Below are positions 4,540 through 31,990 of a stretch of DNA of 43,535 nt, one piece after another. Every line of letters starts with the position of its first letter. The stretch's first letter is position 1. Both the position numbers and the translations under genes were made by a program. The stretch comes from a virus, in IMG/VR virus record IMGVR_UViG_3300042197_004173, positions 1-43,535 of that record, one strand, 5' to 3'. The notes below the pieces were generated by a model that worked only from the letters and a program-made list of their open reading frames with translations, searched no databases and was not told the origin of the DNA.

Positions 4540-4583
4540 CTTCAAGACAATTATTTATATAATTTGTAAAAAAAATTTATTAT

Positions 4584-5726
4584 ATGAACATTCATCTTGA
4601 GTATATCTGGACAGATGGTAACAATCCTCAACATCTTAGATCAAAAACTAAAATAATTCAAAAAGATGTTAAATCACAATTTGACTCAACAAATCAAGGT
4701 AAAAGTTTAGAAGACTATTTTATAGAATGGAAAAATAATCCAGAAAGTCTACCAACTTGGAATTTTGACGGCTCATCCACTGATCAAGCCACTACCCAAA
4801 AATCAGAATTACTTTTGAAACCAGTCAATATCTTCAAAGATCCATTCAAGTTTAATCATGGATTCTTGGTACTGTGTGAAGTATACAACACAGATTGGTC
4901 TATTCACAAAACTAATACCCGTGCCTCAATGATTAACACTTTAGAAAAATGGGATGATGAAACAATGTATGGATTTGAACAAGAGTATTTCATCTATGAC
5001 AACTTAACATCCAAGCCAGTTGGTTGGCCAAAAGATGGATTTCCAGAACCTCAAGGAAATTATTATTGTGCGGTAGGAGGAAATCATGTAAATGGTCGTG
5101 ACTTTGTTGATGATCATGCTAAACTCTGTGAAGTAATCGGTCTAGAACTCAGTGGTATAAATGCTGAAGTCGCTCTTGGACAATGGGAATATCAAATCGG
5201 ACCAGTTTATGCAAAAGAAGGAAGTGATCAATTATGGATTTCAAGATATATTTTAGAAAGACTTTCTGAAAAGTACAACTATTACATAGTACTTGATCCA
5301 AAGCCATATGTTGGAAATAACTGGAATGGTTCAGGAATGCATGTTAATTTTTCAACTAAAACTATGAGAGAGGATCTAAAAAATAAGAAAAAACTTGTTA
5401 TTGAAGCTTGTGAAAGACTTTCAGAAAAAGTTGAAGAACACATTTTAGTGTACGGAAAAAACAATGAATTAAGACTAACTGGACACAATGAAACATGTTC
5501 AATCAATGAATATAGATTTGGAATTGGTGATAGAACTGCATCAATTAGAATTCCTTCGTCTATTGATGATAAAACCACACCTGGATATCTTGAAGACAGA
5601 AGACCAGCTTCAAATGCTGATCCTTATCAAGTAGTTGAAAGAATGGTTAAAACTATTTGTAAACCATCTAATCAAGATAAGATTAAATCTAAAATTAAGA
5701 CTAAATCAAAAGCTCAATCTGTTTAA
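4584..5726 (+). CDS. glnII: Glutamine synthetase, type II (GSII), phage-encoded
   Basis: ATP-dependent ligation of ammonia to glutamate in the cytoplasm. The 380 residues contain the GSII signatures in order: YIWTDG near the N-terminus, DGSST (62-66), GFEQEY (130-135, metal ligands E132 and E134), GINAEVALGQWEYQIGP (191-207, E195 and E202), GSGMHVNFSTKTMR (249-262), LRLTGHNE (296-303), DRTASIRIP (316-324) and YLEDRRPASNADPY (335-348). All conserved catalytic Glu, His and Arg positions appear to be present, so it should be active. It is close to the usual GSII length, with an extra Lys/Ser-rich tail of ~20 residues. It lies alone on the plus strand between minus-strand virion genes, followed by its own terminator. 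An imperfect host-like -7 element (TATAATTTG) lies at 4558-4566. Cellular origin is likely; this is a candidate auxiliary metabolic gene. Confidence 0.95.
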   Translation: MNIHLEYIWTDGNNPQHLRSKTKIIQKDVKSQFDSTNQGKSLEDYFIEWKNNPESLPTWNFDGSSTDQATTQKSELLLKPVNIFKDPFKFNHGFLVLCEVYNTDWSIHKTNTRASMINTLEKWDDETMYGFEQEYFIYDNLTSKPVGWPKDGFPEPQGNYYCAVGGNHVNGRDFVDDHAKLCEVIGLELSGINAEVALGQWEYQIGPVYAKEGSDQLWISRYILERLSEKYNYYIVLDPKPYVGNNWNGSGMHVNFSTKTMREDLKNKKKLVIEACERLSEKVEEHILVYGKNNELRLTGHNETCSINEYRFGIGDRTASIRIPSSIDDKTTPGYLEDRRPASNADPYQVVERMVKTICKPSNQDKIKSKIKTKSKAQSV

Positions 5727-8758: not shown

Positions 8759-10225
8759 TTATTTGTTTAAAACAAATTTAATCTTACCACAATCCCAGAT
8801 TTTTAAGATATTTCTTCTTTTCATTTCTTTACTTTCTGATAATAATGTAGGAACCCGCGATTTTCTAAATCTAGATTTATGGACTCTTCTGCCGTTGCAG
8901 ATATATTTATAATCAGGGTTTGTTTCATGAGATATAGCAAAACCCAATTTTGTATAAAGATCACCAACTGACCAATCCTTATCAGAATAACTTACTATTC
9001 TTTTTGGTTTGTATATTTTTTCAAAATATTTAAGTAATCTTCCAGCACCTCCAATAACATTAGTATTTATTTTATTACAAAATCTAGATAGATTCCATTC
9101 TTCTTGAACCATTTTTTTTCTACCCTCAAATTTATTAAATGTCATCAAACTAACTAAATCATTGTTAAAATATAATCCTAATTTTATAATAGATTTATCT
9201 TTACCCTGAACATGGTTTTTATCTAAAAAATTAGATGAGGTGTTGCTACAAACTTCACGAATTTCACAAGATCTTGCAAATATTTTATAACTTGTCAAAC
9301 CTAGCCAATTATTTATTTGACTTTTGATTATATCTTCTCTAAAATGCCAATCATCTTCCCAAATATGAATAATTCGTATTCCTTTTTTAAAAAAAAATCG
9401 CGATTTATTTAAATGATACCATTTATCTTTCCATAATTCAGAGTGCCAATATAGTCCATTAAATTCAAAACCCAAGTTTAGCTCAGGTAAATAAATATCT
9501 ATTTCAAACTCATCTCTATATGAGTTAATTACCTCACCCTCATAAATAGAGTGAATATAATTCAAAAGCTGCTTCTCTTTAATCGACTGACTATCTCCTA
9601 TTGGTGTACAAACAGTACAAAGTGTCAAATTATTTTTTTTTCTATGATAATAATTATCGCCTGTTATTAGAAATTCATGTTCAAATCCTGAATCACACTT
9701 AAACTTAGATAGGTTATCAGAAACATATTGTATATAATTTTTATCATGTGATATTTTGGATGTCACTAATCTAATTTCTTCGGATTTTGATACATGATCA
9801 ACTCCCCATTTTTCACGAACATTTTTAATAGTTTTTTCTCTAATTTCTTTTGATTGTTGTAAAAACTCAACTCCATATTTCATTAAATTTGTTTTTTTTG
9901 CCTTATTTTGTGTTTCTTCAAGAGCCATTGGATGATCAACGCCATATTTTAAAAGATTATTTTCTTTTGCCTTTAATGCACCACAACCTTTACAACAGGC
10001 ATACTTGTTACCATTTGATGTGTTTCTAAAGTACTCTCTAAAAGTAATAAATACTATTTTATTACAGAAATCACATTCAACTTCTACTATTTGCCTACTA
10101 CCATTTGTTAAATGTTCTATTTTAACATCTATATAATCACAAACCACATTATATCCAAGACTTTCATAATATTTTAACTTCCTATTATCAAATGTTTGTA
10201 GTCTTATCGTATTATTCAATATCAT
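8759..10225 (-). CDS. Free-standing Vsr-like (EDxHD-type) homing endonuclease
   Basis: 488 residues, second copy of the family at 131-1711. In order: an N-terminal segment with CDFC and CKGC (about 50-80); two KYGV-type repeats (KYGVDHPMA, KYGVEFLQQ) and KWGVDHVSK; a CTVC pair before TPIGDSQSIKEKQLL; the nuclease core EIDIYLPELNLGFEFNG, WHSE, HIWEDDW; then ARSCEIREV, NHVQGKDKS, LSRFCNKINTNVIGG and YSDKDWSVGDLYTKLGF. All core acidic residues are present. It lies between the late sigma gene and a 427-residue structural candidate. Its own ATATATAT box is five bases before the ATG, and a terminator lies upstream, suggesting insertion as an independent unit. Confidence 0.84.
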   Translation of the reverse strand: MILNNTIRLQTFDNRKLKYYESLGYNVVCDYIDVKIEHLTNGSRQIVEVECDFCNKIVFITFREYFRNTSNGNKYACCKGCGALKAKENNLLKYGVDHPMALEETQNKAKKTNLMKYGVEFLQQSKEIREKTIKNVREKWGVDHVSKSEEIRLVTSKISHDKNYIQYVSDNLSKFKCDSGFEHEFLITGDNYYHRKKNNLTLCTVCTPIGDSQSIKEKQLLNYIHSIYEGEVINSYRDEFEIDIYLPELNLGFEFNGLYWHSELWKDKWYHLNKSRFFFKKGIRIIHIWEDDWHFREDIIKSQINNWLGLTSYKIFARSCEIREVCSNTSSNFLDKNHVQGKDKSIIKLGLYFNNDLVSLMTFNKFEGRKKMVQEEWNLSRFCNKINTNVIGGAGRLLKYFEKIYKPKRIVSYSDKDWSVGDLYTKLGFAISHETNPDYKYICNGRRVHKSRFRKSRVPTLLSESKEMKRRNILKIWDCGKIKFVLNK

Positions 10226-13477: not shown

Positions 13478-13855
13478 ATGGCTGAATTTAGTTTTAGAGA
13501 TCATTATATCGGATACAAAGGACATCCAAGATTTGTAGTTAATAAAATCATTGAAGATGATTTAATCAGAGTTATTATACAAAAGTACGAAATGATTCTT
13601 TTTACCAACAAAGGAGAATTATTTGGATTACCCGATTTTGGATGTGACTTACCTATTCTTTTACATCAAACTAGAGTTTCAGCAGATGGCGTAGTTAAAA
13701 CTATTATTCGTCAAATAGAAGAATATATTCCAGAGTTAGCAAGTGGAAGTTATACAATTAATGCAGAATTTTTTCAAGATCCTGAAAATTTTCAAGATGT
13801 TCTTCAAATTAATTTCACTTTGGCTTCTTATGAAGTTTATGCTACTATAACTTAA
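13478..13855 (+). CDS. 25: Baseplate wedge protein (T4 gp25 / GPW family)
   Basis: 125 residues (T4 gp25: 132). This family caps the inner baseplate where sheath assembly begins. The pattern fits: an N-terminal HPRFVVNKIIEDDLIRVIIQ, then MILFTNKGELFGLPDFGCDL (matching the G-x-x-x-x-P-x-F-G-x-D/N-L signature), an SADGVVKTIIRQIEEYIPE helix and a C-terminal beta pair. The usual EPR motif is weak (EYIPEL). It follows the clamp-loader gene by 17 bases, with an AATATATAA box in between. Its TAA stop overlaps that of the convergent giant baseplate gene by four bases. Confidence 0.8.
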   Translation: MAEFSFRDHYIGYKGHPRFVVNKIIEDDLIRVIIQKYEMILFTNKGELFGLPDFGCDLPILLHQTRVSADGVVKTIIRQIEEYIPELASGSYTINAEFFQDPENFQDVLQINFTLASYEVYATIT

Positions 13856-16800
13856 GGATAGTAAGACTGTGTGATTGTCAGAGATCCTATTGAAGAATTG
13901 GTTCCAAATCCAAAAGAATCCGATATTATACTTGGTCCATATGTCTGTGCACCAAGATCCCAAATTCTCTGTATATAAGATTGAGTAGTAGAAATATCTT
14001 GATAGTAAGTTGATAATAAGAATCTAGCTTGCCATTGAGTTGAGGACACTCTAGTTTGATAGTAAACATATCCAAATGAATCCATAGCATTATTAAATAT
14101 TTCTGTCACTAAACCAAAATGTGTTGAACCTATTACACTATCTGAAGCTGTAATTAAATTTACTCCGTATTGTGAAAAAGTAGATAGAATAAACGTTTGA
14201 TTATATTTACTAAATGCTGGAATTGAATCAAAAGACTGTGTAACAAATACAGGTATAGTACCAGCCGTAAATTGTGGATTACTATTATTGAGTCTAAAAT
14301 ATTGAGGATTCAAATCACCATATATTGAAGCGCTCATTCCATAGTTACTTCCTGTTAAAAGTTTTGCCAAAACACTATAAGTTACTGGAACAAGTGCTTG
14401 GTTATTTGTGGTATTAATTGGATCTACCCAATAAGATTTACCACCAACAGTTACATCAGCTCTGACTTCTAATGATAAAGTTGCGCCAGGTGCTAAATTA
14501 CCAGACCAATTCAGATTTTTTCCTTGAATATTCATAACACCAGAATTCACAAGGACATAAGGATTTTTCATAAATACAAAATCATCACCTAACTGTATTG
14601 AAAATTTATTTACAGCAAAAGAAGAATTATTTTGAACAATAAATGGAAATCCATGTTTGATATTTGGAAAAACAATATTTCCAGAAGTTGCTAAATAAGG
14701 ACGATCTGTAGGTCTTCCAAACATATCTGTGAAGCTCTTTGTAAAAGTATTTGCAACTAATTGTAAATTTGGAACTTTATCAACATCAGCATAAACAACC
14801 GGTAATGTAGCATCACGATATTGTTTAGTAGTTAGATTACTAAATGCTTCAATTTCTTGTATATCAAGTATTCCTCGTATTTCAAAATTCTTTCTATCTC
14901 TATAAATAGCACCATAACCATTATCAGATGTAACTTCAATAACTAAATATGGAGTAATATTTGAATCAACAGTAAAATTAAATGGTTTTAAATTTGTTAT
15001 GTGTCTATATTCAGATATTTTATCTACTGGTACTAAACTAATTTGTTTCCACTCTGTTACATCAACCCAATTTTTACCAACACCTGCATCTATAGCCGGT
15101 GAAATTGAAGAATATGTAGCACCGGCTTGGCCACTCCAAACATAAATTAAGCTGTCATATTTAGCAACATCACCAACTTGGTAAACTGTTCCTGAGTTCC
15201 AAAGTTTTATATTTTCAAACTTTCTTGGATTGTTGGTTTTATTGTTCGGTATTACAGATTCATATAACTTATTATAATATACAACTCTTTCTCCTTTTTG
15301 ATAGTTTCTAAAAGCATACCATTCTCTATAGATTTCATAAGTTCGTATATCAACTGTATATGAATCAGGCAATAAACTTGATGTTCCTGGTAAAATATAA
15401 AAATCTAAAACACAATTATACACAGTTGAACCACTATTTACCGGCAATAAATATGTCTCATTCATATCAAACATAACTGGAGTAAAATTCTGATGAATAT
15501 TGAATATTTGAGCATCTCTAGTAATGTGAGTAACAACAGTGTTGTCATTGAAATCAGCTCGTCCTGTGATATCCAAGATCTTATGAGTAATTGGAATGAT
15601 ATTTTTTTGTAACCAATACTTAAGACCTTGTAATTTTTTCTGTACTTCTTCTAAAGTATAGTACAAAATATTATTTCCTTCCTTATCTGTAATTCTATAG
15701 GTTAAATTAAACAGATTGGTATCTGTGTAATTTTTATTTGGAAATAAATGTTTAATGAAATTATTTTCAGTCCATCCTGCAACTGAGTTGTCAAATATAT
15801 CAGGAATTTCTACTTTGAAAAGTTTTCCAAAATTTTCAGAATTAGAATTAATATTTCTATAATACTCTGAAAGTTCAAGATCGTTATAACCAAAATAATT
15901 AATGGCATTAATTATTGACTTATAACTTCCAATATAAGGATAAATCATATTTTTGACCATCAACATTTCTTTTCTTTTCATGTTTAGATATTCCCAATCA
16001 ATACCTTCTTCTTTAATGTCATATTCTTTAAAAATATAGACATCATCAGATGATATAAGTTTTCCAACATTATTCAGTTCTGTATGATATCTGATATCTT
16101 CTATTTCTGTTTGACCTAATACATTAAATCTACCTATTTCTTTGTCCCAAACAATTATTCTAAGTGAAAGATAAGTTACTAATCCTGTTTTCGGAAAGTT
16201 ATTTATCAATGTTTGTTCTTGAACCAAGAAATCTACTTCTTTGAAAAAAGAAACTATAATTTCTCTACTATAAACTTCTTTAATCTTTAACAGATATCCA
16301 TTATTTTGTGAAATATATTGACTTTTTTGATTTGAAACATCTTTTACAAAGATTGCGATAGTTTGTCCTTTTCTGAGACCTCTTTTTGTACCTGTTGATG
16401 TAACTGTAAAGAAACTACTAGAATCAGATTTTAAGGATATTTTTCCGAATATTTCACCTGTAATTGTATCTTGTAATGTTTGGAATAAAATTACATCGTT
16501 ATTTGATGAGTTTGTAGTAATTGTAAAATCAATATTTTCACTACGATATAATTGTAATATAGATCTTAAAGCTCCTTCGTCTAGTGAATTATATCCTATA
16601 AAAACTTGTAATGGCTCTGGAACCACACTAATATCTTCATTATCATCAATGTATTCAAGATTGTAGTCAACTCTACTAAAAATAGTTTGTTGATACTCAG
16701 GATCTTTTACCTTTGAAGGATCTCTATTGGGTTTATTATTCAGAAATACAGTAGGCAGTGGTTTTGGACCAGTGTAAGCTAATGCACCAGATGTTGAAAG

Positions 16801-19800
16801 TTGACTACCTGAAAAATCATATAAGAAAAACTGTTGAACATTATCACTAAACCATTTCCAGTAAAAAGAAACTTGAGGATCTTCATTAAAGTTAGCTCTT
16901 GGTCTTCTTATATACTCTCTAACATTTAACCACAAATAGTCTTTTTTATTATACTCTGGACTTAAAGTTCCATAAAGATTTTCAGTTGTACTACCAGTAA
17001 AAGAATCTAGATTAAAATAACTACCAAGTTCTACACTGATTTCTATAACTTTTTGTGTATCTGGTTGAATTCCCCAAATACTTCTTCTATCTGGGTTATA
17101 AACTAATTTAGTAATTTGACCACCTGCAAAAGTTTGTAAACCCTTAGTTTGGCCTGAAAGTGAATCTAATATTATTACTTGTGAATTTGCCCCGATATAA
17201 ATATCACCATCAAATTGATTCAAAGCTTGATATCCATAATCTGGTGGATTGACCGTAAACAATACAACATCTGTGTCAACAAGTACTGAATTGAATTGAG
17301 TATCACTTGAAATATTGATTGTGCTTGTTAAATTATTAAATAATAAGTTATCAAATGTTCCAGTAGAGACTGATGGTATGTTTACAACCGCATTATTATC
17401 AATTTTTTTCAAATTTGTACCACTAGACATCACATAAACTGCTTCATTTTCAGGATCATAGGCTATAGAGTGTGTTCCAACATAAACTGAATAGGTGGCT
17501 TGCCAATCTCTTGTATCACCATCAATTCTCAAAACAGCCGCAGCATCTGTAGTCACATACATATCATTTTCAAAATCATTAAAAACCATATTGTAACTCA
17601 AGTAAGGATTGATATCAACAGTCACTGGTATTGTACCAGAAACTGGATAAATCAATAAATCTGAACTATTTTCAAAAGAAACATAAATATCACCGTTATT
17701 ATTGTTTAAGGAAATAGAGTAAGCAGTTGAACTAAAAGTATAAATATCAGTTAAAACATTCACATACGGATCTATCTTATAAAGAGAATTTTTTGAAAGC
17801 GCCCATAAGTAACTTGATACATGGTTATAACATAATGCAATCGATTGTGTTAATCCAGAAATAGTAATGTCACCAGTGGCGGCCGTTCGGGTGGCTTTGG
17901 TGGCGGAGGTTTCGGAGGCTTTGGCGGTGGCAGTTTTGGCGGTGGCGGTGCCGGTGGCAGAATTTGCATAATTTGAATTAAATACAGTAACTCTATCTCC
18001 AAGTACATAAATTGAATTTACTGGCTCAACATATACTATATCAACCATTTCTGCGATACCACTTAATTCAAGATTGAAATAAGTGTTAGTGAACATATAC
18101 TCGATACTAAAACTTTGTGTGAATGCCAATTTATCGTACATACCTTGTAATAAACTTGGTACAAAAGATGGAGAACAACCAGTCTGTTCAAAACCAAGAT
18201 TAAAAGCAACAGTAGTGAAAGGTGATTTATTACATAATGAATCTGTAAGACCCCAGAAAGGTCCTTCATAACTAAGATTAATTACATCAGGATTTAAATA
18301 TAAAGAGTTATATTGAATATTTTGTAGTGGATAATAAGTATTATTGATGCCTATGACTTGTCCAGTTGCGAATCCTTTTTCTTCAAAAGATGCGCTTGCA
18401 GTTGCCATGACTATTTCATTTGAAGTAAGAAGTGCTCCTAAATTACCACTAAATTTTTTCAATATACGATAACTATCAATACCAGGTAAAGTTGAACTGT
18501 TAGTTTGTATTTTAAGATCAACCCGCTGGGTTTGTTTCTTAACATTAAATCTTAAAGCACTAGCGGCATTAGTCACAAAAATTCCAAAATCATTCACAGT
18601 CTCTGCCCAGGTAGTTGTCCAATTAGCAAGAGTCTGTGCAATATCTATTTGGCCAGTAAAAGTATCAGTGATAGATTGTTCCTCATATGTTCGGCCGTTA
18701 ATATTAATAGTTAAATTTTTACCAATTGTATTGAATATTACAACACTATGCTCTATATAATAATCAGCGGTTATACCAACACCAACTGTAAAATCTATTC
18801 TAACATTCGGAAAGTCTGATTTCAAATTAATTGAGTTATAATATACTGATGCAAATCCAACTGTGTTTAGACTTACAAGAATACCTAATTTACTTAAAGG
18901 CATGAAGTGTCTTGTTAGCCAGTTGCGGAGTGTTTTATCAATTGTTCTTTGCATATCAACAAGTCCTGATGAATAAACATAACTAATCCTTTCTTTGTAA
19001 GGATTTTTGTTAATTTTGATAATTATACCAGATTCGTCAATATCAACAAAAACTATATTATAATCCCAGTTGCTTGAATAATTATAATTGAATTCTTTAA
19101 CAAGTGACTCATAAGTTTCTATGAGCTTTTCATAGACTCTATCTTCTGAACCTATACTATAAGTTGGAGAAACTTCATTGTAATAATAATTTACAATTGC
19201 ATATTTGCTTGGATAAATTAAATCGGCTTTCAAAAAAGTGTCTTCGTAATAAAAATCTATATTTAAAATCTTCATTTCACTTTTGAATCGTTCAGCTGCA
19301 CTCGCCAGTGTTACTTCAGCTGATTGTGTGAATGATTGTGTAAAATATAATCTATCTGTGGTTAGATAAATCTCACCACCTGTTAAAAATTCATCATTAA
19401 CAGCACCTGATAATGAAGACGGTTCAATAGGTAAATATGTTGGTGTGGACCAATACAGACCAGATTCTTCTGAACCGGAAGGACCAGGTAAAAAAGATGT
19501 AGAGTCACCGAGAGAAAATTGTGGTATTATATCATTACTATAATTAAAAATACCAACCGATTCGAATGGAACTGCTGACCAAGTATAAGCCTGAATACAT
19601 TCATATAGAACATTTTCGTACAAGACCTGACTACCAGTTGCAAAGTAAGTCAAATTAACAATACTTTCAAAGGTTGGAATACTACTGACCTTGAAGAAAT
19701 AAGGATTCAATACGGAATTGGTGACTTTGAACTCAGTACCAGGAGATAAAATATCCGGTATATTATTTGAGAAATATAATCTATTGTTTGTAGAATCAAA

Positions 19801-20643
19801 ACTCAATCCACCTTTATATACTCTGGGTAAATCTGTTTTACTTAATACCTCAATAATTAACTGAGAATCATGAGGTAAAGAATTTTTTGACAAACGCCAT
19901 TCATGATGAACAATATCTTGTACAGATGGATTTTTAATTGTAACTACTTCAACATCTTGATATTTACCAGTGAGTCTATAGTTATCGTTTTTATCAGTAT
20001 TTACAATATTTATTTTACGATATTGATATAATCGGTCATAAAAAGTTGGCTCATTCCATATAGAAAGAGTATCTTTAAGTTTTGGAGTTATATAGTTATA
20101 AATACCAATTAAATCTGTTCCTGTTACAGTTACACCACCATAAGAATTACCATCATTATAACTACCTGAGAATGCTGACTCAAAATCTGCATTATTTAAA
20201 TTAGATAAAATTAAAATGGCATCTTTTTTAGATCCAACAACTGGATAAACAATATTTGGCTCATTAAATTCAAATATAGGAGTGTTGAATCTTACAAAAG
20301 TTCCTAATTTAAAATTTCTTTCTATATTTTTAGAATAAATCCATTTTGAATAAAATGTTTGTTCAAAATTTACAGGTTCAATTTTCGTAACTGATTGTGT
20401 CGCAGCTCCTGAATAAAAATGAAATCCATATTCATTAAATAACTGCCACTTTCTTAAACTCAAATCAGGTGGATTCTCAAAAACAAAAGCATCTATATTC
20501 TCAAAAACATATAATGATTGAGTTTTAAAAGTGTCACTCGATCCCACTGGGAATAAAATATCTCCCTCATGTCTTTCAAGTGACTCATTATAGGTAAAAT
20601 TTAAACTATTTCCCTCTTTATCAAAGAATACTAAGTTTTGCAT
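13852..20643 (-). CDS. Giant baseplate / tail structural protein (possibly gp7-like wedge), 2263 aa
   Basis: Very large virion protein; T4's comparable wedge protein gp7 is 1032 residues. Mostly beta-rich, Ser/Thr/Asn/Tyr-rich. Visible parts are: a YENVLYECIQAYTW segment (~340-356) like small carbohydrate-binding folds; a Thr/Ala-rich linker (~893-924) encoded by GC-rich DNA; a region (~925-1220) with five or more repeats of the type S-x-Y-L-W-A-L, D-I-Y-V-S-F, A-V-Y-V-M-S, D-I-Y-I-G-A, S-I-W-G-I, suggesting a beta-propeller; a helical segment (~1555-1590, MLMVKNMIYPYIGS) of baseplate-wedge character; and two tandem W-x-x-G-x-x-V-x-Y units (~1768-1840) like CBM5/12 domains. It overlaps the gp25 gene tail to tail, supporting a baseplate role. 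The gp7 equivalence is tentative. Confidence 0.78.
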   Translation of the reverse strand: MQNLVFFDKEGNSLNFTYNESLERHEGDILFPVGSSDTFKTQSLYVFENIDAFVFENPPDLSLRKWQLFNEYGFHFYSGAATQSVTKIEPVNFEQTFYSKWIYSKNIERNFKLGTFVRFNTPIFEFNEPNIVYPVVGSKKDAILILSNLNNADFESAFSGSYNDGNSYGGVTVTGTDLIGIYNYITPKLKDTLSIWNEPTFYDRLYQYRKINIVNTDKNDNYRLTGKYQDVEVVTIKNPSVQDIVHHEWRLSKNSLPHDSQLIIEVLSKTDLPRVYKGGLSFDSTNNRLYFSNNIPDILSPGTEFKVTNSVLNPYFFKVSSIPTFESIVNLTYFATGSQVLYENVLYECIQAYTWSAVPFESVGIFNYSNDIIPQFSLGDSTSFLPGPSGSEESGLYWSTPTYLPIEPSSLSGAVNDEFLTGGEIYLTTDRLYFTQSFTQSAEVTLASAAERFKSEMKILNIDFYYEDTFLKADLIYPSKYAIVNYYYNEVSPTYSIGSEDRVYEKLIETYESLVKEFNYNYSSNWDYNIVFVDIDESGIIIKINKNPYKERISYVYSSGLVDMQRTIDKTLRNWLTRHFMPLSKLGILVSLNTVGFASVYYNSINLKSDFPNVRIDFTVGVGITADYYIEHSVVIFNTIGKNLTININGRTYEEQSITDTFTGQIDIAQTLANWTTTWAETVNDFGIFVTNAASALRFNVKKQTQRVDLKIQTNSSTLPGIDSYRILKKFSGNLGALLTSNEIVMATASASFEEKGFATGQVIGINNTYYPLQNIQYNSLYLNPDVINLSYEGPFWGLTDSLCNKSPFTTVAFNLGFEQTGCSPSFVPSLLQGMYDKLAFTQSFSIEYMFTNTYFNLELSGIAEMVDIVYVEPVNSIYVLGDRVTVFNSNYANSATGTATAKTATAKASETSATKATRTAATGDITISGLTQSIALCYNHVSSYLWALSKNSLYKIDPYVNVLTDIYTFSSTAYSISLNNNNGDIYVSFENSSDLLIYPVSGTIPVTVDINPYLSYNMVFNDFENDMYVTTDAAAVLRIDGDTRDWQATYSVYVGTHSIAYDPENEAVYVMSSGTNLKKIDNNAVVNIPSVSTGTFDNLLFNNLTSTINISSDTQFNSVLVDTDVVLFTVNPPDYGYQALNQFDGDIYIGANSQVIILDSLSGQTKGLQTFAGGQITKLVYNPDRRSIWGIQPDTQKVIEISVELGSYFNLDSFTGSTTENLYGTLSPEYNKKDYLWLNVREYIRRPRANFNEDPQVSFYWKWFSDNVQQFFLYDFSGSQLSTSGALAYTGPKPLPTVFLNNKPNRDPSKVKDPEYQQTIFSRVDYNLEYIDDNEDISVVPEPLQVFIGYNSLDEGALRSILQLYRSENIDFTITTNSSNNDVILFQTLQDTITGEIFGKISLKSDSSSFFTVTSTGTKRGLRKGQTIAIFVKDVSNQKSQYISQNNGYLLKIKEVYSREIIVSFFKEVDFLVQEQTLINNFPKTGLVTYLSLRIIVWDKEIGRFNVLGQTEIEDIRYHTELNNVGKLISSDDVYIFKEYDIKEEGIDWEYLNMKRKEMLMVKNMIYPYIGSYKSIINAINYFGYNDLELSEYYRNINSNSENFGKLFKVEIPDIFDNSVAGWTENNFIKHLFPNKNYTDTNLFNLTYRITDKEGNNILYYTLEEVQKKLQGLKYWLQKNIIPITHKILDITGRADFNDNTVVTHITRDAQIFNIHQNFTPVMFDMNETYLLPVNSGSTVYNCVLDFYILPGTSSLLPDSYTVDIRTYEIYREWYAFRNYQKGERVVYYNKLYESVIPNNKTNNPRKFENIKLWNSGTVYQVGDVAKYDSLIYVWSGQAGATYSSISPAIDAGVGKNWVDVTEWKQISLVPVDKISEYRHITNLKPFNFTVDSNITPYLVIEVTSDNGYGAIYRDRKNFEIRGILDIQEIEAFSNLTTKQYRDATLPVVYADVDKVPNLQLVANTFTKSFTDMFGRPTDRPYLATSGNIVFPNIKHGFPFIVQNNSSFAVNKFSIQLGDDFVFMKNPYVLVNSGVMNIQGKNLNWSGNLAPGATLSLEVRADVTVGGKSYWVDPINTTNNQALVPVTYSVLAKLLTGSNYGMSASIYGDLNPQYFRLNNSNPQFTAGTIPVFVTQSFDSIPAFSKYNQTFILSTFSQYGVNLITASDSVIGSTHFGLVTEIFNNAMDSFGYVYYQTRVSSTQWQARFLLSTYYQDISTTQSYIQRIWDLGAQTYGPSIISDSFGFGTNSSIGSLTITQSYYP
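17872..17965 (-). other. GC-rich low-complexity island inside the giant baseplate gene
   Basis: About 90 bases of GGC/GGT/GCC-rich sequence within very AT-rich DNA. On the coding (minus) strand it encodes a linker of mainly Thr, Ala, Ser and Lys (ATGTATAKTATAKASET and on) just before the propeller-like region. On the plus strand the same bases read as an open Gly/Phe-rich frame (GGFGGGGFGGFGGGSFGG). Local repeats of GGTGGC and GGCGGT suggest growth by slippage or import from a GC-richer source. Confidence 0.75.
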
Positions 20644-22027: not shown

Positions 22028-23821
22028 TCAATTGGTGGTGGATAAAGACTCACTTAATTGATTCTTTACCAACTCTCTATAATAATCACACTTTTCTAAT
22101 AACTCATGGTGAGTTCCTGAATCTAAAATTTTACCTAATTTCATCACAAATATCCTGTCACAATCTTTAACCGTTGAAAGACGATGAGCAATTATTATAG
22201 TAGTTTTTCCCTTAGAAACCGAATCAATTGCTTCTTGAACTTGCGCCTCTGATACAGTATCAAGTGCTGATGTAGCTTCATCAAAAATTAAAAAATGGGG
22301 ATTTTTAGCAAGTGCTCTTGCAATTCCTATTCTTTGGCGCTCACCACCTGATAATTTACAACCTCTTTCGCCTATAATAGTGTCCCAACCCCATTCTAAC
22401 TTGTGTTTAAATTTCCAAACTCCACTCAATTTAGCAATTTCATCAATTTCTTCATCAGTTAATAAACGATTTACACCAAATGATATATTTTCTCTAATTG
22501 AAGCATCAAAAAGAATAACTTCTTGATCAACTGATCCAATCATATTTAAAAATGATTTTAGTTCAATATCTTTTAAATTATGATCATTAATATAAATAGT
22601 ACCCAACTGTGTATCAAAACTACGTCTAATCAAATTGGTGATTGTAGATTTACCTGAGCCAGATTCACCAACAAAAGCAACTTTTTCACCGTTATTAATT
22701 TTAAAACTTATACCATTGAGTATATATTCATCACTTTCTGAATTTTCAGTATCGTGTTCTTTACCTCTTTTTGGATAAGCAAAGTGCACATTATCAAATT
22801 GAAGCGAATTTATTTTTTGTAAAGTTATTGCATTTTCAACAATTTGAATATCTGGTTTTATATCTAAAAGTTCAAAATATTTTTCAATATTGATTTTATC
22901 AGTTACAAATTGTTTTTGCATATCTGTGAGTGCCCACAAAGAATTAATAAAATTACCTGACCATAAAAACATCATAAATAAATTACCGGATGTGATTTTA
23001 CCATTAACAACAAGGATAACTGCTACAATAATTGTAATCCATCTAAATGCTTGTGAACTGAGTCTGATTAGTGTAAGTTGATTTACAGCACCGAGCCAGG
23101 TTGAAGAATATTCCACTTGATAATCTTCTTGAATTTTTTGGAGATTATTTAGTGATTTTCCTTCAGCTACTTCATTTTTAATTAAAAATACAAAACGATA
23201 TATTTCTGAAATAAATCTTGAGTTTTTATTTCTAATATCACGAACCTTTCGGATTTTAGGATCAATTGATTGATTAAATCTAAAAAGAGAAATAGAAAAA
23301 AATATTGATGATAAAAGATAAGCAAGGCCAATCCAAACATTTACCCAGAACAGTACCACAATAGAAATTATAAATTGTGAAATTGATGGTATAAAATTAT
23401 AAATAAACATATTCATTTGATTGTGAATACTTGCAAATCCTGATTGTACTATACTTTGTTTCACACCAGAATGTTCGTTGATATGTTGGCCATTTGAAAA
23501 TGAAAAAAATTTAATAATAGATTGATGATTTAAGTGATTATCAACATATACATCTAATTTTTTGACTTCAATTCGTTCCCGTATTCTAACTAAAATAATT
23601 TTAGTAATTACTAAAATAGTGGCGGATCCGCACCAAAAAAGTGCCCAATTAAGATTTGCACCTTTTTGTGCCATATCAAATACTTTACTTAAAAAGTAGG
23701 TATTAATAGCTTCAATTGAAGTGATTGCTGCGATAATAAGAAAAACAAGTAGTAAAGTTTTTCTGAATGGTTTAGTAAATTTATAGACTTGAAGTAAAAC
23801 TTCTTTATTAGAATATTGCAT
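22028..23821 (-). CDS. ABC exporter (MsbA/lipid-A-type half-transporter)
   Basis: Full-length half-transporter of 597 residues: membrane domain (~1-310) fused to an ATPase domain (~340-590); it would work as a homodimer in the inner membrane. Hydrophobic segments lie near residues 17-38, 56-78, 140-185 (a pair) and 250-300 (a pair). The ATPase has Walker A VGESGSGKST (~381-391), Q-loop SVDQEVILFD, signature LSGGERQRIGIARAL (~488-502), Walker B FLIFDEATSALD and switch His in IIAHRLS. Nothing is missing, so it should be functional. It lies between tail and recombination genes with a host-type TATATTTG element upstream instead of only a late box, suggesting earlier or host-like expression. Substrate unknown. 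Intact ABC exporters are uncommon in phages. Confidence 0.93.
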   Translation of the reverse strand: MQYSNKEVLLQVYKFTKPFRKTLLLVFLIIAAITSIEAINTYFLSKVFDMAQKGANLNWALFWCGSATILVITKIILVRIRERIEVKKLDVYVDNHLNHQSIIKFFSFSNGQHINEHSGVKQSIVQSGFASIHNQMNMFIYNFIPSISQFIISIVVLFWVNVWIGLAYLLSSIFFSISLFRFNQSIDPKIRKVRDIRNKNSRFISEIYRFVFLIKNEVAEGKSLNNLQKIQEDYQVEYSSTWLGAVNQLTLIRLSSQAFRWITIIVAVILVVNGKITSGNLFMMFLWSGNFINSLWALTDMQKQFVTDKINIEKYFELLDIKPDIQIVENAITLQKINSLQFDNVHFAYPKRGKEHDTENSESDEYILNGISFKINNGEKVAFVGESGSGKSTITNLIRRSFDTQLGTIYINDHNLKDIELKSFLNMIGSVDQEVILFDASIRENISFGVNRLLTDEEIDEIAKLSGVWKFKHKLEWGWDTIIGERGCKLSGGERQRIGIARALAKNPHFLIFDEATSALDTVSEAQVQEAIDSVSKGKTTIIIAHRLSTVKDCDRIFVMKLGKILDSGTHHELLEKCDYYRELVKNQLSESLSTTN

Positions 23822-23916: not shown

Positions 23917-24546
23917 TTAATAACCATCAATAAGTGGAGGCGAAATTGCTGTTCCATTATCAATGTATTCATCTTGCCAATAATCAACTACGAAGTCTGC
24001 GCTAATATTAGCTAATATACCTTGTCCTTCGTAAGTTAAAGAAGCCATATTAGTAATAGAAGATAATTGACAGTTCTGGAATGTTACACGTCTTAAAACT
24101 AAACCTTTTTTATCGTGTTGATTTACGATAATAGTTCCCACCATGTCTGCTTTATAATGTAGGTAACCATTTTGTGAGTTCCAAGCCAGATCGTACCATT
24201 GTTTTAAAGTAGTCCAAGTTTCCATAGATCCATTGTTATTTACATTGACATTAAATGTAATTGCTAAAGAATCAATATGAGTTTCAGAAGGACCAGCGTT
24301 CAAGAAAGCTCTTGTTGAATATTTAAATCTTTGATTAGATTTCCCAATTGGTTTATTAGTTGTACTCAAATCAACAGTAAGTGCTTGTTGAAGCAGTAAA
24401 AAAGGATCTCTACCAGCAGCTTGTAATGCCAAAGGCAAAACAAATGATATCTCAAAGAGATTAGTATATACAGGTTCTTGAGGTAATGAACCTGGACCAC
24501 CTGGTGGTGAATTCACTGCTAAGTTGGAAAAATGTGGTAATGGCAT
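23917..24546 (-). CDS. 19: Tail tube protein (T4 gp19-like)
   Basis: Forms the hexameric rings of the inner tail tube. Of 209 residues (T4 gp19: 163) the family pattern is clear: EPVYTNLFEISFVLP at the N-terminus, a loop, RFKYSTRAFLNAGPSETHID, SLAITFNVNVNNNGSMETWTTLKQWYDL and a C-terminal NCQLSSITNMASLTYEGQG and ISADFVVDYWQDEY. The extra length is mostly an N-terminal Pro/Gly-rich segment (NSPPGGPGSLP). It is divergent from the chaperone gene and followed by a terminator. Confidence 0.9.
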   Translation of the reverse strand: MPLPHFSNLAVNSPPGGPGSLPQEPVYTNLFEISFVLPLALQAAGRDPFLLLQQALTVDLSTTNKPIGKSNQRFKYSTRAFLNAGPSETHIDSLAITFNVNVNNNGSMETWTTLKQWYDLAWNSQNGYLHYKADMVGTIIVNQHDKKGLVLRRVTFQNCQLSSITNMASLTYEGQGILANISADFVVDYWQDEYIDNGTAISPPLIDGY

Positions 24547-24733: not shown

Positions 24734-25684
24734 ATGTCAAATACTAATGAAATGTCAGAAGAAGAATTCTTAAAAAGACACTTGATGGAACAAGAAAATA
24801 AATCTAATTCTAATAATAATTTTAATCCTGCTAAAGCTATGTCAGAAAATATTATTATCACAAATCAAGAAAAAAGTACCGTAAGTGATTTACAATACTT
24901 TAATTTTGATATTAAAGAACTACCGTGTGGTAAATTTTATCCAACAGGAACAGTATTGATGATTAGACCAGCAGCTGTTAAAGAAATTCAAGCTTACTCT
25001 ATGGTTGATGACAACAATTTTTATGACATTGTTGAAAAAATGAATGATATGCTACAATCTTGTGTTAGAGTAAAATATTCTAACGGCCAAATTGCTTCAT
25101 ACCTAGATGTTAAAGATCAAGATAGACTATATTTGATTTTTACCATTCGTGAATTGACTTTTCAACAAGGAAATAGTCTTTCTATAACTGTTCAATCCGG
25201 ATCAACAGAAACTCAAATTGAAATGATTAGAAAAAATTTCAGATTCTTTGAAGCAGATGAACAACTTGAAAAATATTTTAACAAATCTGCAAGTTCTTAT
25301 ATCTTTGAAACAATTAACGGAAAAGAGTTCAAACTAACACCACCAAATATTGGTATTCAAAAATCATTTACCGAATATATTATCAAAGAAAACAATGAAA
25401 ATAGAACACCTAATTTAGCTTTCTTGAAAATTATACCGTTTATGCTTGAAGGTAGGAATTCTATAACATATGATGGAATTAAAGCAAAACTAAAAGAATT
25501 TGAGCAAATGGACGATATATCTTTTCAATTTTTAAATGCCGCTGTTAGTAAGATGACTTTTGGAATTAAAGAAATTGCCAAAGAAGTGGACGGCCAGGAG
25601 GTCCGTGCCGAAATGCAATTTCCCAACGGAGCGTCAGGTATTTTCGTTGTTCGCGACGCCTTTGAGGCCTTTATTAAAAAATAA
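24734..25684 (+). CDS. Baseplate hub / tail assembly chaperone (T4 gp26 family), zero-frame product
   Basis: 316 residues of the T4_baseplate (gp26-type) family: an acidic Asn-rich start, then FDIKELPCGKFYPTGTVLMI (the usual L-P-S-x-G-x-x-Y motif), a helical core with LYLIFTIRELTFQQGN, and a C-terminal part SKMTFGIKEIAKEV then FPNGASGIFVVRDAFEAFIKK. Such proteins help assemble the tail or hub and are often absent from the virion. The gene sits beside the tail tube gene, as tail chaperones do in many phages. The last ~100 bases are markedly GC-richer, with synonymous C/G third positions unlike the rest. The frame ends AAAAAATAA, and a clearly coding segment continues in another frame, so a second, longer product is likely. 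Confidence 0.8.
   Translation: MSNTNEMSEEEFLKRHLMEQENKSNSNNNFNPAKAMSENIIITNQEKSTVSDLQYFNFDIKELPCGKFYPTGTVLMIRPAAVKEIQAYSMVDDNNFYDIVEKMNDMLQSCVRVKYSNGQIASYLDVKDQDRLYLIFTIRELTFQQGNSLSITVQSGSTETQIEMIRKNFRFFEADEQLEKYFNKSASSYIFETINGKEFKLTPPNIGIQKSFTEYIIKENNENRTPNLAFLKIIPFMLEGRNSITYDGIKAKLKEFEQMDDISFQFLNAAVSKMTFGIKEIAKEVDGQEVRAEMQFPNGASGIFVVRDAFEAFIKK
25664..25684 (+). promoter_or_regulatory. Putative programmed frameshift site
   Basis: GAGG (25664-25667) lies eight bases before a run of six A (25676-25681, two Lys codons in frame), followed directly by the zero-frame TAA (25682-25684). A -2 slip of Lys-tRNA on the A run, or a +1 slip at AAA-T, moves ribosomes into the frame that stays open to 25919. 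The Shine-Dalgarno-like tetramer and adjacent stop are common stimulators of recoding. A one-base assembly error in the A run would give the same picture. Confidence 0.6.
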
Positions 25685-25919
25685 ACTTCTGATTCAAAAA
25701 CATTGGCATGTTAATGAATTCTGCATAGACTCTTGGCCATTTTGGCTCTTTGAAGAAAACATTAAAATTATTAATGAACTCAATGAAGAAGAAGAAAAAC
25801 AAAGAAAAACAGAAGAAGATGCACAACAAAAAGGAATGCCAAACTTCAATCCAAATTCAATAATGAGCGGAATGCCTAATTTAGGTAACATAGGAAACTT
25901 AGGAAGTGGTTTCAAGTAA
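25680..25919 (+). CDS. C-terminal extension of the tail chaperone, expressed by frameshift
   Basis: 79 residues (from 25680 for a -2 slip) in a frame without a usable start: no ATG occurs before the Gly/Asn/Met-rich end, and only a TTG at 25560 opens it upstream. The part after the zero-frame stop looks coding. HWHVNEFCIDSWPFWLFEEN is followed by an acidic helix (INELNEEEEKQRKTEED) and a low-complexity GMPNFNPNS tail, with the AT-rich codon use of the genome. This is the layout of the T domain of lambda G/GT-type tail chaperones, made only as a fusion by rare frameshifting. The fusion would be ~395 residues. No other gene occupies this stretch; a bidirectional terminator follows. Confidence 0.65.
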   Translation, partial: NKLLIQKHWHVNEFCIDSWPFWLFEENIKIINELNEEEEKQRKTEEDAQQKGMPNFNPNSIMSGMPNLGNIGNLGSGFK

Positions 25920-25925
25920 TATAAA

Positions 25926-25950
25926 AACCCAGATAAATATCTGGGTTTTT
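25926..25950. terminator. Bidirectional intrinsic terminator
   Basis: CCCAGAT, short AAAT loop, ATCTGGG, flanked by A and T runs. It lies between the stops of the chaperone extension (plus) and the third homing endonuclease (minus). The same CCCAGATA/TATCTGGG stem is reused at 27721-27740 on the other side of the endonuclease. Confidence 0.85.
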
Positions 25951-27763: not shown

Positions 27764-30700
27764 TTATGGATTGATGAATCCACCTGCTGAGATAGCTCCT
27801 GTTCTCAAGATTGTAATGTTATTTACAATAATACCCATACCCTTAATTGGTTCTACATAGGTATCAAGAACACCGATTTGATTATCTATAATCTCTGGTG
27901 TATTATTTTCTTCATCAATTTTATTGAAGTAATTATATAATCCATTTCTTACAACATATTTCTCACAAATAAGATCAGCTTGTAATTTGATTTGTTGTCT
28001 AATATCAGCTGTATTGAATTTCCACTGGAAGTCTAACAACATTCTTGAAAGTTCTCTTTCAAGTTCAATCAACACTTCTCTAACATGTATGTAAGAAAGA
28101 GCTGACTTGTAAAGCACTTGAGCCGTATTTTCAGTCTCAATAATAAATCCTCTATTTCTTTTGAAAGTAAGTGGATTCATTTGAGCTTGATTTAAAAACT
28201 CAATGTCACTAGGTGTGAATATTTGTTCAAGATCATTGATTCCTGTAATTCTACCGTTATTAACACCAGCTGCAATTGTCCAAGGAACTAAACTTGAAAT
28301 TGTACTATTATGTTTTCTCATAAATGTCAATCCAACATATGCTGCCGGTGGTACATCTAAAGGCCTTCCAAAGTCATCAATAGTCACGAATGGTGTGAAA
28401 TAACCTACTGAAGTAACACCAACTCCCTTACCGAAAGAGTATAAAAAGTCTGGATCACTTTCAGGATCACCACCTGATGCGATATAAGAAATTTGTAAGG
28501 TTCCTTTTGTGTCTTTAAACACTGGAGAAACTGAATTTTTGAATGTTTTAAGAGATGGCATATTCAAGATACCAAAAGCGTCTAATCTATCACCACAAAG
28601 ATCAACTAATTGTTGTTTTGAGTTTTCTGTAAGACCAAGACCGAATGTATCAATCAAATATCTGAAATCAAATGCTTCTTTATTAGTAAGAGCTTTGAAC
28701 AATGGTGTTCCTTTAGCCATAACATCAAGTATTGAAGATTGTCTCGCATCAGTACCATCAGGTAACTGATCTAATCTCAATCTAAATCCTTTAAGGACAA
28801 TACTTTTATAAGTATCTACATAATCATCAATTTTTGTATATCTTGTAGTTTGAAGATCGCCATTTACTGTCTTAATCTTAATAGCAGAATCACAAGTGAT
28901 TTCTACATATTCTGTACTACCAGGCCATACTTTTTTCGAAAGTATTCTTGTTATCTTTCTTGGCATTTGATCACTCTCAAGTAAACTAGAATCATAGTCT
29001 GCTTCTAAGTAGTCTCCGAGTTTTAATTCACCGTATCTACTTCTTTTACAAAGAATTTTATTTGCCACTGGTGTCCAACCAGTAGGTGTCTCAATTTCTA
29101 TAGTTTGTTTGAAATTACTAATAAATGATTTAACATAGATAGTTCCATTTGTTGCCAATGCGTTGTCATCATCAGTATTTAATGTTGATAGATAATCTTG
29201 TGTTGAAAGCGATTTATCTGTAAATTTAACTACTAGATCACCGTTATCTTTTTGATAAGGAGTAATATAAACTGGACTTCCATCAAAGTCTGAGTTATAT
29301 GCGTATAATTTACTAATTGGAAATACTTCATCAACTACTGTTTCAAATATTTCGTAAGCATAATAGCTGTAAGAACCACTATTGATAAAATTATATTTAC
29401 CATTACTATAAGTAGCTAGTAAATAAGCTCTACCATCAGCTGTACTCGGACTACCATCTGCACTTGCTGGAGGTGAGGCAAATCCATTTTCAAGTGTTAT
29501 ACCTTCATCAACCTTCATTGTGAAAGTTGCACTGTTTTTCACAGCAGTTATTACAACTTGATATCCTGGTACGCCAGTATTATCACCTAAATAATTATTG
29601 ATTTTATCGAAATAATTTTCATTATTCTGAGTATAAGTTCTACCCTGTTTAACCTCAAATACAAGATAGTTATATCCAGTCAATGAAGAAGTAGCCGATG
29701 AACCTGGTACAAAAGTAGCAACAACATCATCCCACAATTCATTTTGATAAAACAAATCACCTACATTAATCAACCCTTGGTCATATTGAGTATAAAACTT
29801 AGAGTATTTACCAACAACACCCATTGAGCTTGTTGAACCCTTTACTAATGATGGAATTGTATCTTTAGTTTCAAATCCAGCGTAGTCAATCAAAAACTCA
29901 TCATCTAATTTATACAGAGCTAACTCACCACGAGTTACAATTCCAGATATTTCAGCATTTGTTAATCCAGTATTAACTACAAAAGACTTATTAACATCTG
30001 CAGTAGTTTTTATATTGCTAAATGTAATTCCAGATAAACTCTTTTTATCAGTTGTTGTTGTTGGATTTAACAACATTAGACCACGATTTTTAGCCGAACT
30101 ATCAATATAAGTCAATAAAGTATTGAATAATTTATGTCTTCTATATGTTTTGTAATCAGTAACATCAGGTGTTGAATTGGTATTTTCAAAAGTAACTTTA
30201 AAGTCACCAGTATTTAGTGTAAGAGTCACACTTGAAGCAGTACTGAATGTATAATCAATACCATTGTAAAGTGGAATATAAGCATTTGAACCACCACCGG
30301 AGTTTGAATTGATAGTTAAATCAGTAAAACTGAAAGTAGCTGTTGTTGTGTCACCAGCGAATAATCCGGAATTAACACTCACAGTACCATAAGAAAGAAC
30401 TATATCAGTTGCACTTACTTTAGGATATGAACCAGTAGCAGTTAAGTTCTTAGCTAAAATTGTACCAGTAGAATCTAAAACAATTGCAAAGTTATAAGAT
30501 TGAGTTCCTGTTCCTCCTGGGAAATTTGAACTTTTTAATTCTGGAGAATAAGTTCCAGATAATGAAACTAAACTACCACCAATCACAGCATATCCGTTAT
30601 CTGAAGTCGGGTGAGTCAAATAATTTAATTTAATACTCATAGTACCAACGGTTCCAGTACCAGATCTGTAGAGGTCGTTAACATAACCTTCTGCGAACCA

Positions 30701-31990
30701 GTAAGTTCTTTGTGGATATGAAAGATATTGAAGATTCTGATCTTTATTAGGACCACTCACAAGGCCACCAAACACAGAAGCATCATTATAAGAGTGTGTA
30801 AATAAACCAGCTCCAGATATAGCACCTGCACTATTTACCATCAAGGTAGAAGTTGTGCCAAAAATTGATATAACATTACCTGGTCTATCAAGAACTCTAT
30901 TAGAATAAGACAATGTTTCGGTTATTTGTTCCTTATATGACAAGAAATCAATAGAGACCTCACCATCTGCTTTACTATCATTTAAATCCAAGGATTGGTA
31001 ATAAGTCTCATCTGATGTTGGAGGATTACTCAAAAGATCATCATAAACAAGTGTATTACCTACTAAATCAACAAGACCTTTTGGATAATCAGTTTCGATC
31101 AAATCACTATTGAATGCGCAAAAAAGTCCTGTTCTGTCAGTGTCTCTATTGACAATAGTTTCAATAAAAATATTTCTACCGTTAGCATCTCTAAAATAAG
31201 GAATCAAAGAAACACCTTCATAATAACCAAGTAATGATACATTTCTATCATTTGCAAAATTTCTTAGCTGGGATTTTTTCAAACCTTCACTAGAGAAATA
31301 TGCAGACCATCTTGGATCAACAGAAAGATTAGCATAATCAGACCATTCACCACCTACTACAACAATATCAACTAAATAATCAGAAGCATAATCCATTGGG
31401 TATAGATATGGTGGCAATTTTTCAATTGAACCATACCACTCTAAAAGTGGTCTATCAAAACCAGTTACTGATGATTTAACACAGTAAACTGTGATATACT
31501 TATCTGATAGATTAGTAATATTCAACAATCTTTTTTCGTTACCTGTGTTATTTTTTACTAAATCAAGAAAAGCATCTGTATCTCTTTTCCAGAAACCAGT
31601 TGTGTCAAAAAATTTACTATAAGCTCCTAGTCTTTCACTATCATTAATGTTCATAGGAGTTGTTGATAAAGATTGATACTCAATAGTGTCTAATGTATCA
31701 TCTGTGATTAATAAATTTACAGCGTACACAGGAGCTGCTTCCAACATTTTGGAAATTGTTCTATGAAAGAATGATTGTTTTCTTTCTAAGTTTCTATCAA
31801 TAGAACCAAAAATTCTTTCTAAGTCACCAATAGAGTTCAAAAGAACTGCAGTGTTTACTGGGCCTTTTTTGGAAAATCCAATTACAAGGTTCGCGAAACC
31901 GCCTTCCACAATTGGACTGGTAATAATTGATTTGTCAATCTCTTCTATGAAGATTCCTGGTCTTTTGTATTTACCGATTTGAATTGCCAT
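27764..31990 (-). CDS. 18: Tail sheath protein (T4 gp18-like), unusually large
   Basis: Contractile sheath subunit. The 1408 residues are about twice T4 gp18 (659). The N-terminus is typical: YKRPGIFIEEIDKS, FANLVIGFSKKGPVN, then LERIFGSIDRN and MLEAAPVYAVNLLI. The conserved C-terminal half starts near residue 1090 (FKALTNKEAFDFRYLIDTFG, CGDRLDAFGILNMPS) and continues with VPPAAYVGLTFMRKHN, VPWTIAAGVNNG, NRGFIIETENTAQ and the final subunit-linking region ending VNNITILRTGAISAG. Between ~350 and ~1000 lies a Ser/Thr/Gly-rich beta region (FSFTDLTINSNSGGGSNAY, VTLTLNTGDFKVTF), most simply one or more Ig-like surface domains. Only one sheath gene is seen. A TAATATATAAG box lies ~30 bases upstream and a terminator follows. 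Confidence 0.93.
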   Translation of the reverse strand: MAIQIGKYKRPGIFIEEIDKSIITSPIVEGGFANLVIGFSKKGPVNTAVLLNSIGDLERIFGSIDRNLERKQSFFHRTISKMLEAAPVYAVNLLITDDTLDTIEYQSLSTTPMNINDSERLGAYSKFFDTTGFWKRDTDAFLDLVKNNTGNEKRLLNITNLSDKYITVYCVKSSVTGFDRPLLEWYGSIEKLPPYLYPMDYASDYLVDIVVVGGEWSDYANLSVDPRWSAYFSSEGLKKSQLRNFANDRNVSLLGYYEGVSLIPYFRDANGRNIFIETIVNRDTDRTGLFCAFNSDLIETDYPKGLVDLVGNTLVYDDLLSNPPTSDETYYQSLDLNDSKADGEVSIDFLSYKEQITETLSYSNRVLDRPGNVISIFGTTSTLMVNSAGAISGAGLFTHSYNDASVFGGLVSGPNKDQNLQYLSYPQRTYWFAEGYVNDLYRSGTGTVGTMSIKLNYLTHPTSDNGYAVIGGSLVSLSGTYSPELKSSNFPGGTGTQSYNFAIVLDSTGTILAKNLTATGSYPKVSATDIVLSYGTVSVNSGLFAGDTTTATFSFTDLTINSNSGGGSNAYIPLYNGIDYTFSTASSVTLTLNTGDFKVTFENTNSTPDVTDYKTYRRHKLFNTLLTYIDSSAKNRGLMLLNPTTTTDKKSLSGITFSNIKTTADVNKSFVVNTGLTNAEISGIVTRGELALYKLDDEFLIDYAGFETKDTIPSLVKGSTSSMGVVGKYSKFYTQYDQGLINVGDLFYQNELWDDVVATFVPGSSATSSLTGYNYLVFEVKQGRTYTQNNENYFDKINNYLGDNTGVPGYQVVITAVKNSATFTMKVDEGITLENGFASPPASADGSPSTADGRAYLLATYSNGKYNFINSGSYSYYAYEIFETVVDEVFPISKLYAYNSDFDGSPVYITPYQKDNGDLVVKFTDKSLSTQDYLSTLNTDDDNALATNGTIYVKSFISNFKQTIEIETPTGWTPVANKILCKRSRYGELKLGDYLEADYDSSLLESDQMPRKITRILSKKVWPGSTEYVEITCDSAIKIKTVNGDLQTTRYTKIDDYVDTYKSIVLKGFRLRLDQLPDGTDARQSSILDVMAKGTPLFKALTNKEAFDFRYLIDTFGLGLTENSKQQLVDLCGDRLDAFGILNMPSLKTFKNSVSPVFKDTKGTLQISYIASGGDPESDPDFLYSFGKGVGVTSVGYFTPFVTIDDFGRPLDVPPAAYVGLTFMRKHNSTISSLVPWTIAAGVNNGRITGINDLEQIFTPSDIEFLNQAQMNPLTFKRNRGFIIETENTAQVLYKSALSYIHVREVLIELERELSRMLLDFQWKFNTADIRQQIKLQADLICEKYVVRNGLYNYFNKIDEENNTPEIIDNQIGVLDTYVEPIKGMGIIVNNITILRTGAISAGGFINP

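Follow-up and report, generated by a model that had tools for sequence, protein, structure and literature searches.

The stretch of DNA that we analyzed (hereafter the window) corresponds to one complete linear IMG/VR contig, 43,535 bases long. Because sheath, portal, and tail tube genes are found in it, the window is a fragment of the genome of a contractile-tailed phage (Table 1). The tail tube gene belongs to a family common to the phages PAU, pT24, and PTm1, of which the PAU and pT24 members match tail-tube families. Beside it lie two overlapping coding segments in different frames, namely ORF1, whose 3' end reads ATT AAA AAA TAA, and a +1-frame segment (ORF2) that continues past the ORF1 stop. 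The original prediction had drawn attention to the AAAAAA-TAA end of ORF1, to a coding-looking continuation to 25919 in the +1/-2 frame, and to a GAGG (25664-25667) eight bases 5' of the A run (25676-25681), and all of these are present in the sequence.

Several other features of the window deserve mention. An ABC transporter gene (22028-23821; phrog_2392, E 4e-122) neighbors the tail tube gene and has the same orientation, and two homing-endonuclease genes of one PHROG family (phrog_3339) are located at 131-1711 and 8759-10225. A 2,263-aa ORF at 13852-20643 has no PHROG match at E 0.01, and its product is possibly the tape measure or another large structural protein. Between the end of ORF2 and a convergent gene at 25955 there is an inverted repeat followed by a T run (AACCCAGATAAATATCTGGGTT, approximately 25923-25950), which, judged by eye, is terminator-like.

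Table 1. Positions of the tail genes and of the elements of the ORF1-ORF2 junction in the window
Feature	Position	Strand	Remarks
Portal gene	2516-4201		
Tail tube gene	23917-24546	-	phrog_32623; divergent from ORF1
ORF1, 0-frame product, proposed "G" form	24734-25684	+	316 aa
GGAGGTC, Shine-Dalgarno-like island	25597-25603	+	Near-zero synonymous diversity, codons -29 to -27
Spacer, codons -26 to -22	25604-25618	+	15 nt, no synonymous constraint
Proposed +1 shift site UUU_C	25619-25622	+	0-frame context TTT CCC AAC GGA
Dual-coded overlap, 0 frame and +1 frame	25620-25684	+	Stop counts, synonymous constraint
+1-frame segment, proposed "T" part	25620-25919	+	99 aa; TAA at 25917-25919
GAGG and A6 run, rejected site	25664-25681	+	Not conserved
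0-frame stop TAA	25682-25684	+	
Tail sheath gene	27764-31990	-	phrog_34521, E 7e-91

Close relatives of ORF1 are encoded on 295 IMG/VR stretches, and more distant ones, with ORF1 identity down to approximately 20%, occur in huge phages, Lak, MA9V, MaF61, pT24, PTm1, and PAU; none was detected in the genome-contig collection that was searched. Genomes of 635-735 kb are among the related records, and those relatives that have been cultured infect mainly Bacteroidota.

The comparison of 41 dereplicated junction representatives shows that the frame break is conserved. In every one of them (41/41) the +1 frame, which is the same as the -2 frame, stays open past the ORF1 stop and into a conserved second segment, and every close relative with a complete junction has the frame relation of the window. 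Within the last 18 ORF1 codons, the +1 frame contains 0 stops in 738 codons, as against 37 expected when ORF1 codons are swapped for synonyms drawn from ORF1 usage (minimum 24 in 1,000 shuffles). Across 15 divergent lineages, 0 stops are found where 15.7 are expected, a count reached in none of 20,000 shuffles, while the +2 frame of the same stretch carries 22 stops in 270 codons. The frame break is genuine and conserved beyond chance. In Lak-B5, an in-frame TAG is present inside the +1 extension, after position 4793, so that the fusion would reach full length there only under genetic code 15, with TAG decoded as an amino acid.

To locate the shift site, we measured synonymous diversity per codon in 61 close relatives, numbering codons back from the ORF1 stop. 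Diversity is approximately 0.9-1.0 of expectation up to codon -30, dips to near zero at an isolated island (GAG GTC, within GGAGGTC), is again approximately 1 at codons -26 to -22, falls to 0 at TTT CCC AAC from codon -21 (25619), and then stays at approximately 0.1-0.2 until the stop. Single-base variants follow the same pattern: of the 0-frame-synonymous changes that are possible, 6/6 occur at codons -26 to -22, 0/1 at TTT, and 4/18 at codons -20 to -14. In addition, a +1-frame stop sits one codon 5' of TTT C in L084, L086, L080, and L094-L098, so the shift in these genomes must occur at TTT C or later; taken together, the onset of constraint and the position of these stops place the start of double coding at TTT. 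From there to the ORF1 stop the DNA has coding character in two frames, and beyond it the +1 segment is coding.

TTT CCC is kept in all 153 members of the clade to which the window belongs. CCC is rare in the genes of the window (13 of 354 proline codons; 1.1 per 1,000 codons), and there is no further in-frame TTT CCC among the window genes examined. In the relatives, the 0-frame A-site codon is mostly CCC, with CAA in Lak and L086 and, as the sole CGN, TTT CGA in MaF61. TTT C is missing here from L085 and MA9V-2, and in PTm1 it is displaced, which indicates that the shift site differs among some distant lineages. The window site has the layout of a UUU_CGN-type site, that is, UUU in the P site, then C, with a rare 0-frame codon next. 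The sequence pattern fits a +1 shift by P-site re-pairing from UUU to UUC beside a rare A-site codon; constraint mapping places the shift here rather than at the A run of the original prediction, and in the +1 rather than the -2 direction.

Upstream of this site, the GGAGGTC island is a candidate stimulator. Its spacing to the site is identical in PAU, L171, L174, L086, and the L084 clade. However, GGAGG lies 17 nt from TTT, whereas stimulatory Shine-Dalgarno elements are reported at 3 nt from +1 sites and at 9-14 nt from -1 sites (PMC5009743), which counts against the +1 reading. A further point against it is that Bacteroidota hosts reportedly do not recognize Shine-Dalgarno sequences, a property that has been described for the ribosomes of Bacteroidia (PMC9976891); GGAGGTC is nevertheless nearly invariant in these phages. 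A search with RNAalifold for a conserved stem-loop around the shift site gave weak pairs only, none of them convincing.

What the two segments encode can be approached through their relatives. ORF1 matches phrog_36717 (E 1.7e-15); the window protein itself has no match to PF12322 (T4_baseplate), and it aligns over its length with homologs that exceed the PF12322 cut-off, namely PAU gp93 (3.4e-8), L174 (1.4e-7), and L086 (9.2e-7). Assigned in this way, through its PF12322-matching relatives, ORF1 would belong to the T4 gp26 family, as had been predicted. We also modeled the ORF1 and ORF2 parts separately with AlphaFold2. In a BFVD search, the ORF1 model (pLDDT 83.7) proved similar to baseplate hub proteins of the T4 type (CP220 hub, 5.7e-6; SP-15 hub, 9e-10; Aeromonas phage 25 gp26, 4e-3), suggesting a predicted fold that is common to the T4-type hub proteins. 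Direct hhalign alignments of ORF1 with the single T4 gp26 and gp51 sequences are weak, so it is PF12322, PHROGs, and BFVD, together with cyanophage intermediates, that provide the link to T4; searches of the PDB by sequence and by fold returned no match.

The +1 segment resembles gp51. On its own the window segment has no match to phrog_634 ("baseplate hub assembly catalyst", gp51), and the corresponding segments of relatives do match this family (L180, 8.8e-5; L098, 3e-4; L170, 8e-4). Moreover, a +1 profile led by the window aligns colinearly with gp51 of the cyanophage S-SRM01 (hhalign probability 77%, E 2e-5), and cyanophage gp51 in turn matches the C-terminus of T4 gp51 (E 3e-6). The AlphaFold2 model of the 99-aa ORF2 is mostly helical but of low confidence (pTM 0.46), and a structure search with it was uninformative. 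A gp51-like second segment fits the earlier idea of a G/GT-like pair that merges hub-chaperone and G/GT logic.

Alternative explanations of the frame break must be weighed against programmed +1 frameshifting. The original prediction considered a base-count error in the A run to be the chief alternative. The conserved frame relation excludes it. An assembly or base-calling error, or a pseudogene, is barely credible, with nothing found in its favor, as the same frame relation is found in all relatives whose junction is complete, each assembled independently, and in the isolate genomes of PAU, pT24, PTm1, and MA9V-2, and the comparison with homologs proposed at the time turned out in favor of a conserved break. 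The A run has also been considered as the shift site itself, by ribosomal or transcriptional slippage just before the stop, with the nearby GAGG as signal. Both elements are present in the window, yet most relatives have GAAG, and the A run varies such that relatives with the same frame break read AAAGAA, GAAAAA, or GCGGAG; in addition, the onset of constraint lies about 60 nt 5' of the A run. We regard a shift at this place as highly improbable. A net -2 shift at ATT/CTT TTC (codons -14/-13), with tRNA-Phe moving from UUC to UUU, would yield the same frame relation as +1, and for this reading it can be said that the window clade shares a conserved (A/C)TT TTC with many others and that the Shine-Dalgarno-like element, lying farther upstream, suits backward shifts better (spacings in PMC5009743). 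It would, however, not account for why the window clade lacks synonymous changes over codons -21 to -15, and the re-pairing fails in Lak (ATA TTC), in L171 and L178 (TTA TTC), in L096 (ATC TTC), and in pT24, which makes it quite unlikely. A -2 re-pairing at TTT or CCC was discarded because of mismatches.

The remaining alternative is that ORF2 overlaps ORF1 as a distinct gene, initiated at a start codon of its own and perhaps coupled in translation to ORF1, and that no fusion is made. Indeed, a +1-frame ATG is located 29 or 26 nt ahead of the ORF1 stop in 152 of the 153 clade members, the annotations of pT24, MA9V-2, MaF61, and PAU treat the small second ORF as a separate gene, and the window has TTG as a possible start. 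The statement in the original prediction that there is no usable start is thus correct for ATG in the window, which is the one clade member (1/153) lacking it in the +1 frame, but does not extend to the TTG and GTG codons in the +1 frame of the window or to the ATG of its relatives. That ATG can be understood as a by-product of conserved 0-frame His-Asp-Ala codons (CAT GAT GCC), and constraint begins at TTT CCC, about 11 codons 5' of it. Evidence against a separate start comes from L084, L094, and L095, in which, counting from the last +1 stop, there is no +1-frame ATG, GTG, or TTG until 82 nt beyond the ORF1 stop, and the 27 codons ahead of the first start evolve as +1-frame coding sequence. 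Over these codons L084 and L094 differ by 8 synonymous and 5 nonsynonymous codon changes (2, 4, and 10 changes at codon positions 1, 2, and 3), and throughout the comparisons among the three genomes synonymous changes are as frequent as nonsynonymous ones or more so, with the third position dominant. Coding codons that no start precedes argue against independent initiation in this clade. Similarly, in L171 and L086 the first start lies 28 nt beyond the stop, and sequence resembling FSLFQI.L.NFFKAK..LYYH is conserved ahead of it. On account of these start-less coding segments we reject an independent ORF2 start as a general rule and consider a separate gene unlikely. Initiation at an unusual codon may occur in the start-less lineages, and an extra, separate ORF2 product is possible in the ATG-bearing relatives; frameshifting explains every lineage, with or without a start, by a single mechanism.

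Thus, we propose, at a probability of roughly 80% and from sequence evidence, that programmed +1 frameshifting at UUU_C makes a two-product tail-assembly chaperone that includes a minor 394-aa fusion. The programmed joining of the two segments had been predicted, together with a fusion of approximately 395 residues, and is supported by the absence of +1 stops and by constraint mapping. The majority of ribosomes would terminate at the ORF1 stop, which yields the 316-aa gp26-family protein. At UUU_CCC (codon -21), a minority would shift by +1: with the rare CCC still to be decoded in the A site, tRNA-Phe in the P site would leave UUU and pair with UUC instead; the next codon would then be CCA, and the +1 frame would be read to 25916. 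In the resulting fusion, a gp51-like helical domain would take the place of the last ~20 ORF1 residues. We infer the ribosomal mechanism, its direction and efficiency, and a stimulatory role of GGAGGTC from these sequence patterns. By analogy with lambda gpG/gpGT, perhaps the short form coats the tape measure, and the fusion recruits tail-tube subunits.

If correct, this proposal has several implications. That gp26-like and gp51-like parts are joined by a conserved frameshift suggests a testable role for both T4 proteins as tail-assembly chaperones, and the arrangement may explain how T4-like phages make paired tail-building helpers, as lambda does by frameshifting. UUU_C would be one more +1 site, preceded by an element under tight conservation, in phages of hosts that are thought not to use Shine-Dalgarno pairing. 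In addition, hundreds of large phage genomes would have an ORF2 that is misannotated or has been overlooked. A literature search, with incomplete coverage of subscription papers, found no description of such a shift site in huge or Lak phages and no paper linking gp26/gp51 of T4-like phages to frameshifting.

The T4 proteins themselves are listed as hub assembly chaperones, gp51 being essential and of unknown function (PMC3004832). Judged by sequence, T4 gp26 and gp51 are paralogs (BLASTP E 2e-6), both being nearly full-length in phrog_150. Their genes (3803-4429 and 4480-5229 in T4, L185) differ in that gp51 has an extra C-terminal phrog_634 region, as if G and GT had come from duplicated genes. 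In 10 of the 13 other T4-like phages examined (L186, L187, L189-L194, L197, and L198, comprising cyanophages, Moby, Va3, Melnitz, Ochrobactrum OC, and Aeromonas CC2), gp26 ends in the canonical -1 heptamer T_TTT_TT(C/T), at most a codon or two from the stop, and gp51 follows in the -1 frame. In ACG-2014g, Syn19, ACG-2014j, Melnitz, and CC2 the first start codon lies at least 50 nt beyond the gp26 stop, and the -1-frame peptide ahead of it is largely conserved. From this sequence pattern, gp26 and gp51 of these phages are probably linked by an unannotated -1 frameshift; in Va3 and Moby, a stop-start overlap (TGATG and TAATG) is a rival explanation. The statement in the original prediction that T4 uses separate genes therefore holds for T4 itself, but other T4-like phages appear to join the two by frameshifting.

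The pattern in these thirteen genomes suggests gp26/gp51 as the counterparts of lambda G/GT, two genes having taken the place of the frameshift in T4. It is tempting to extend this to contractile T4-like phages generally, in which gp26/gp51 would be the G/GT pair, ancestrally frameshifted, with T4 and its close kin exceptional through duplication; we put the chances of this broader reading at about even. Under it, U_UUU_UUC would be the site of a -1 shift in phages such as cyanophages and Aeromonas CC2, and UUU_C that of a +1 shift in jumbo and huge phages of Bacteroidota, while duplication would have given T4 its separate short (gp26) and long (gp51) genes.

Frameshifting in G-T genes has been described as widely conserved "except T4" (PMC5009743), and several known systems can be set beside the window locus. 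Like the proposed window pair, lambda gpG and gpGT share their N-terminal part, and the longer of the two arises by a frameshift close to the 3' end of the first ORF. The lambda shift is -1, however, and instead of the -1 (or -2) slippery sequence that marks G/GT pairs, the window site maps to TTT C and +1; ORF1 is, moreover, apparently a T4 gp26-family protein of a contractile-tailed phage, unlike lambda gpG. With regard to gene order, a tape-measure gene (E 9.6e-7) lies directly 3' of ORF2 in MA9V-2 (ORF1 - ORF2 - tape measure), and in PAU and pT24 the tube gene lies directly 5' of ORF1 (tube - ORF1 - ORF2). ORF1 of the window also adjoins the tail tube gene, but in divergent orientation, and no tape measure was identified among the window genes. 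Relatives of both window parts match the families of T4 gp26 and gp51 (PF12322/phrog_150 and phrog_634), yet in T4 these are separate, divergently oriented paralogous genes without a frameshift, unlike the window locus.

As to the direction of the shift, the archaeal virus HSTV-2 very likely has a +1 frameshift in a myovirus G-T pair (PMC5009743), as is proposed for the window; its host is archaeal, and the likeness is drawn from the published description. The Listeria phage PSA also uses +1 shifts in capsid and tail structural genes, likewise involving a proline codon (PMC5009743), but there the shift is on the proline codon itself, next to a stop codon or pseudoknot, and it extends structural proteins rather than a chaperone. 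In influenza A PA-X (UUU_CGN), the P-site UUU is followed by C, re-pairs to UUC, and has a slow 0-frame codon next (PMC5009743). Sites of the PA-X type are known from eukaryotic viruses, unlike the window phage, and, if the broader reading of gp26/gp51 is true, UUU_C would be the bacterial counterpart of this type of +1 site.
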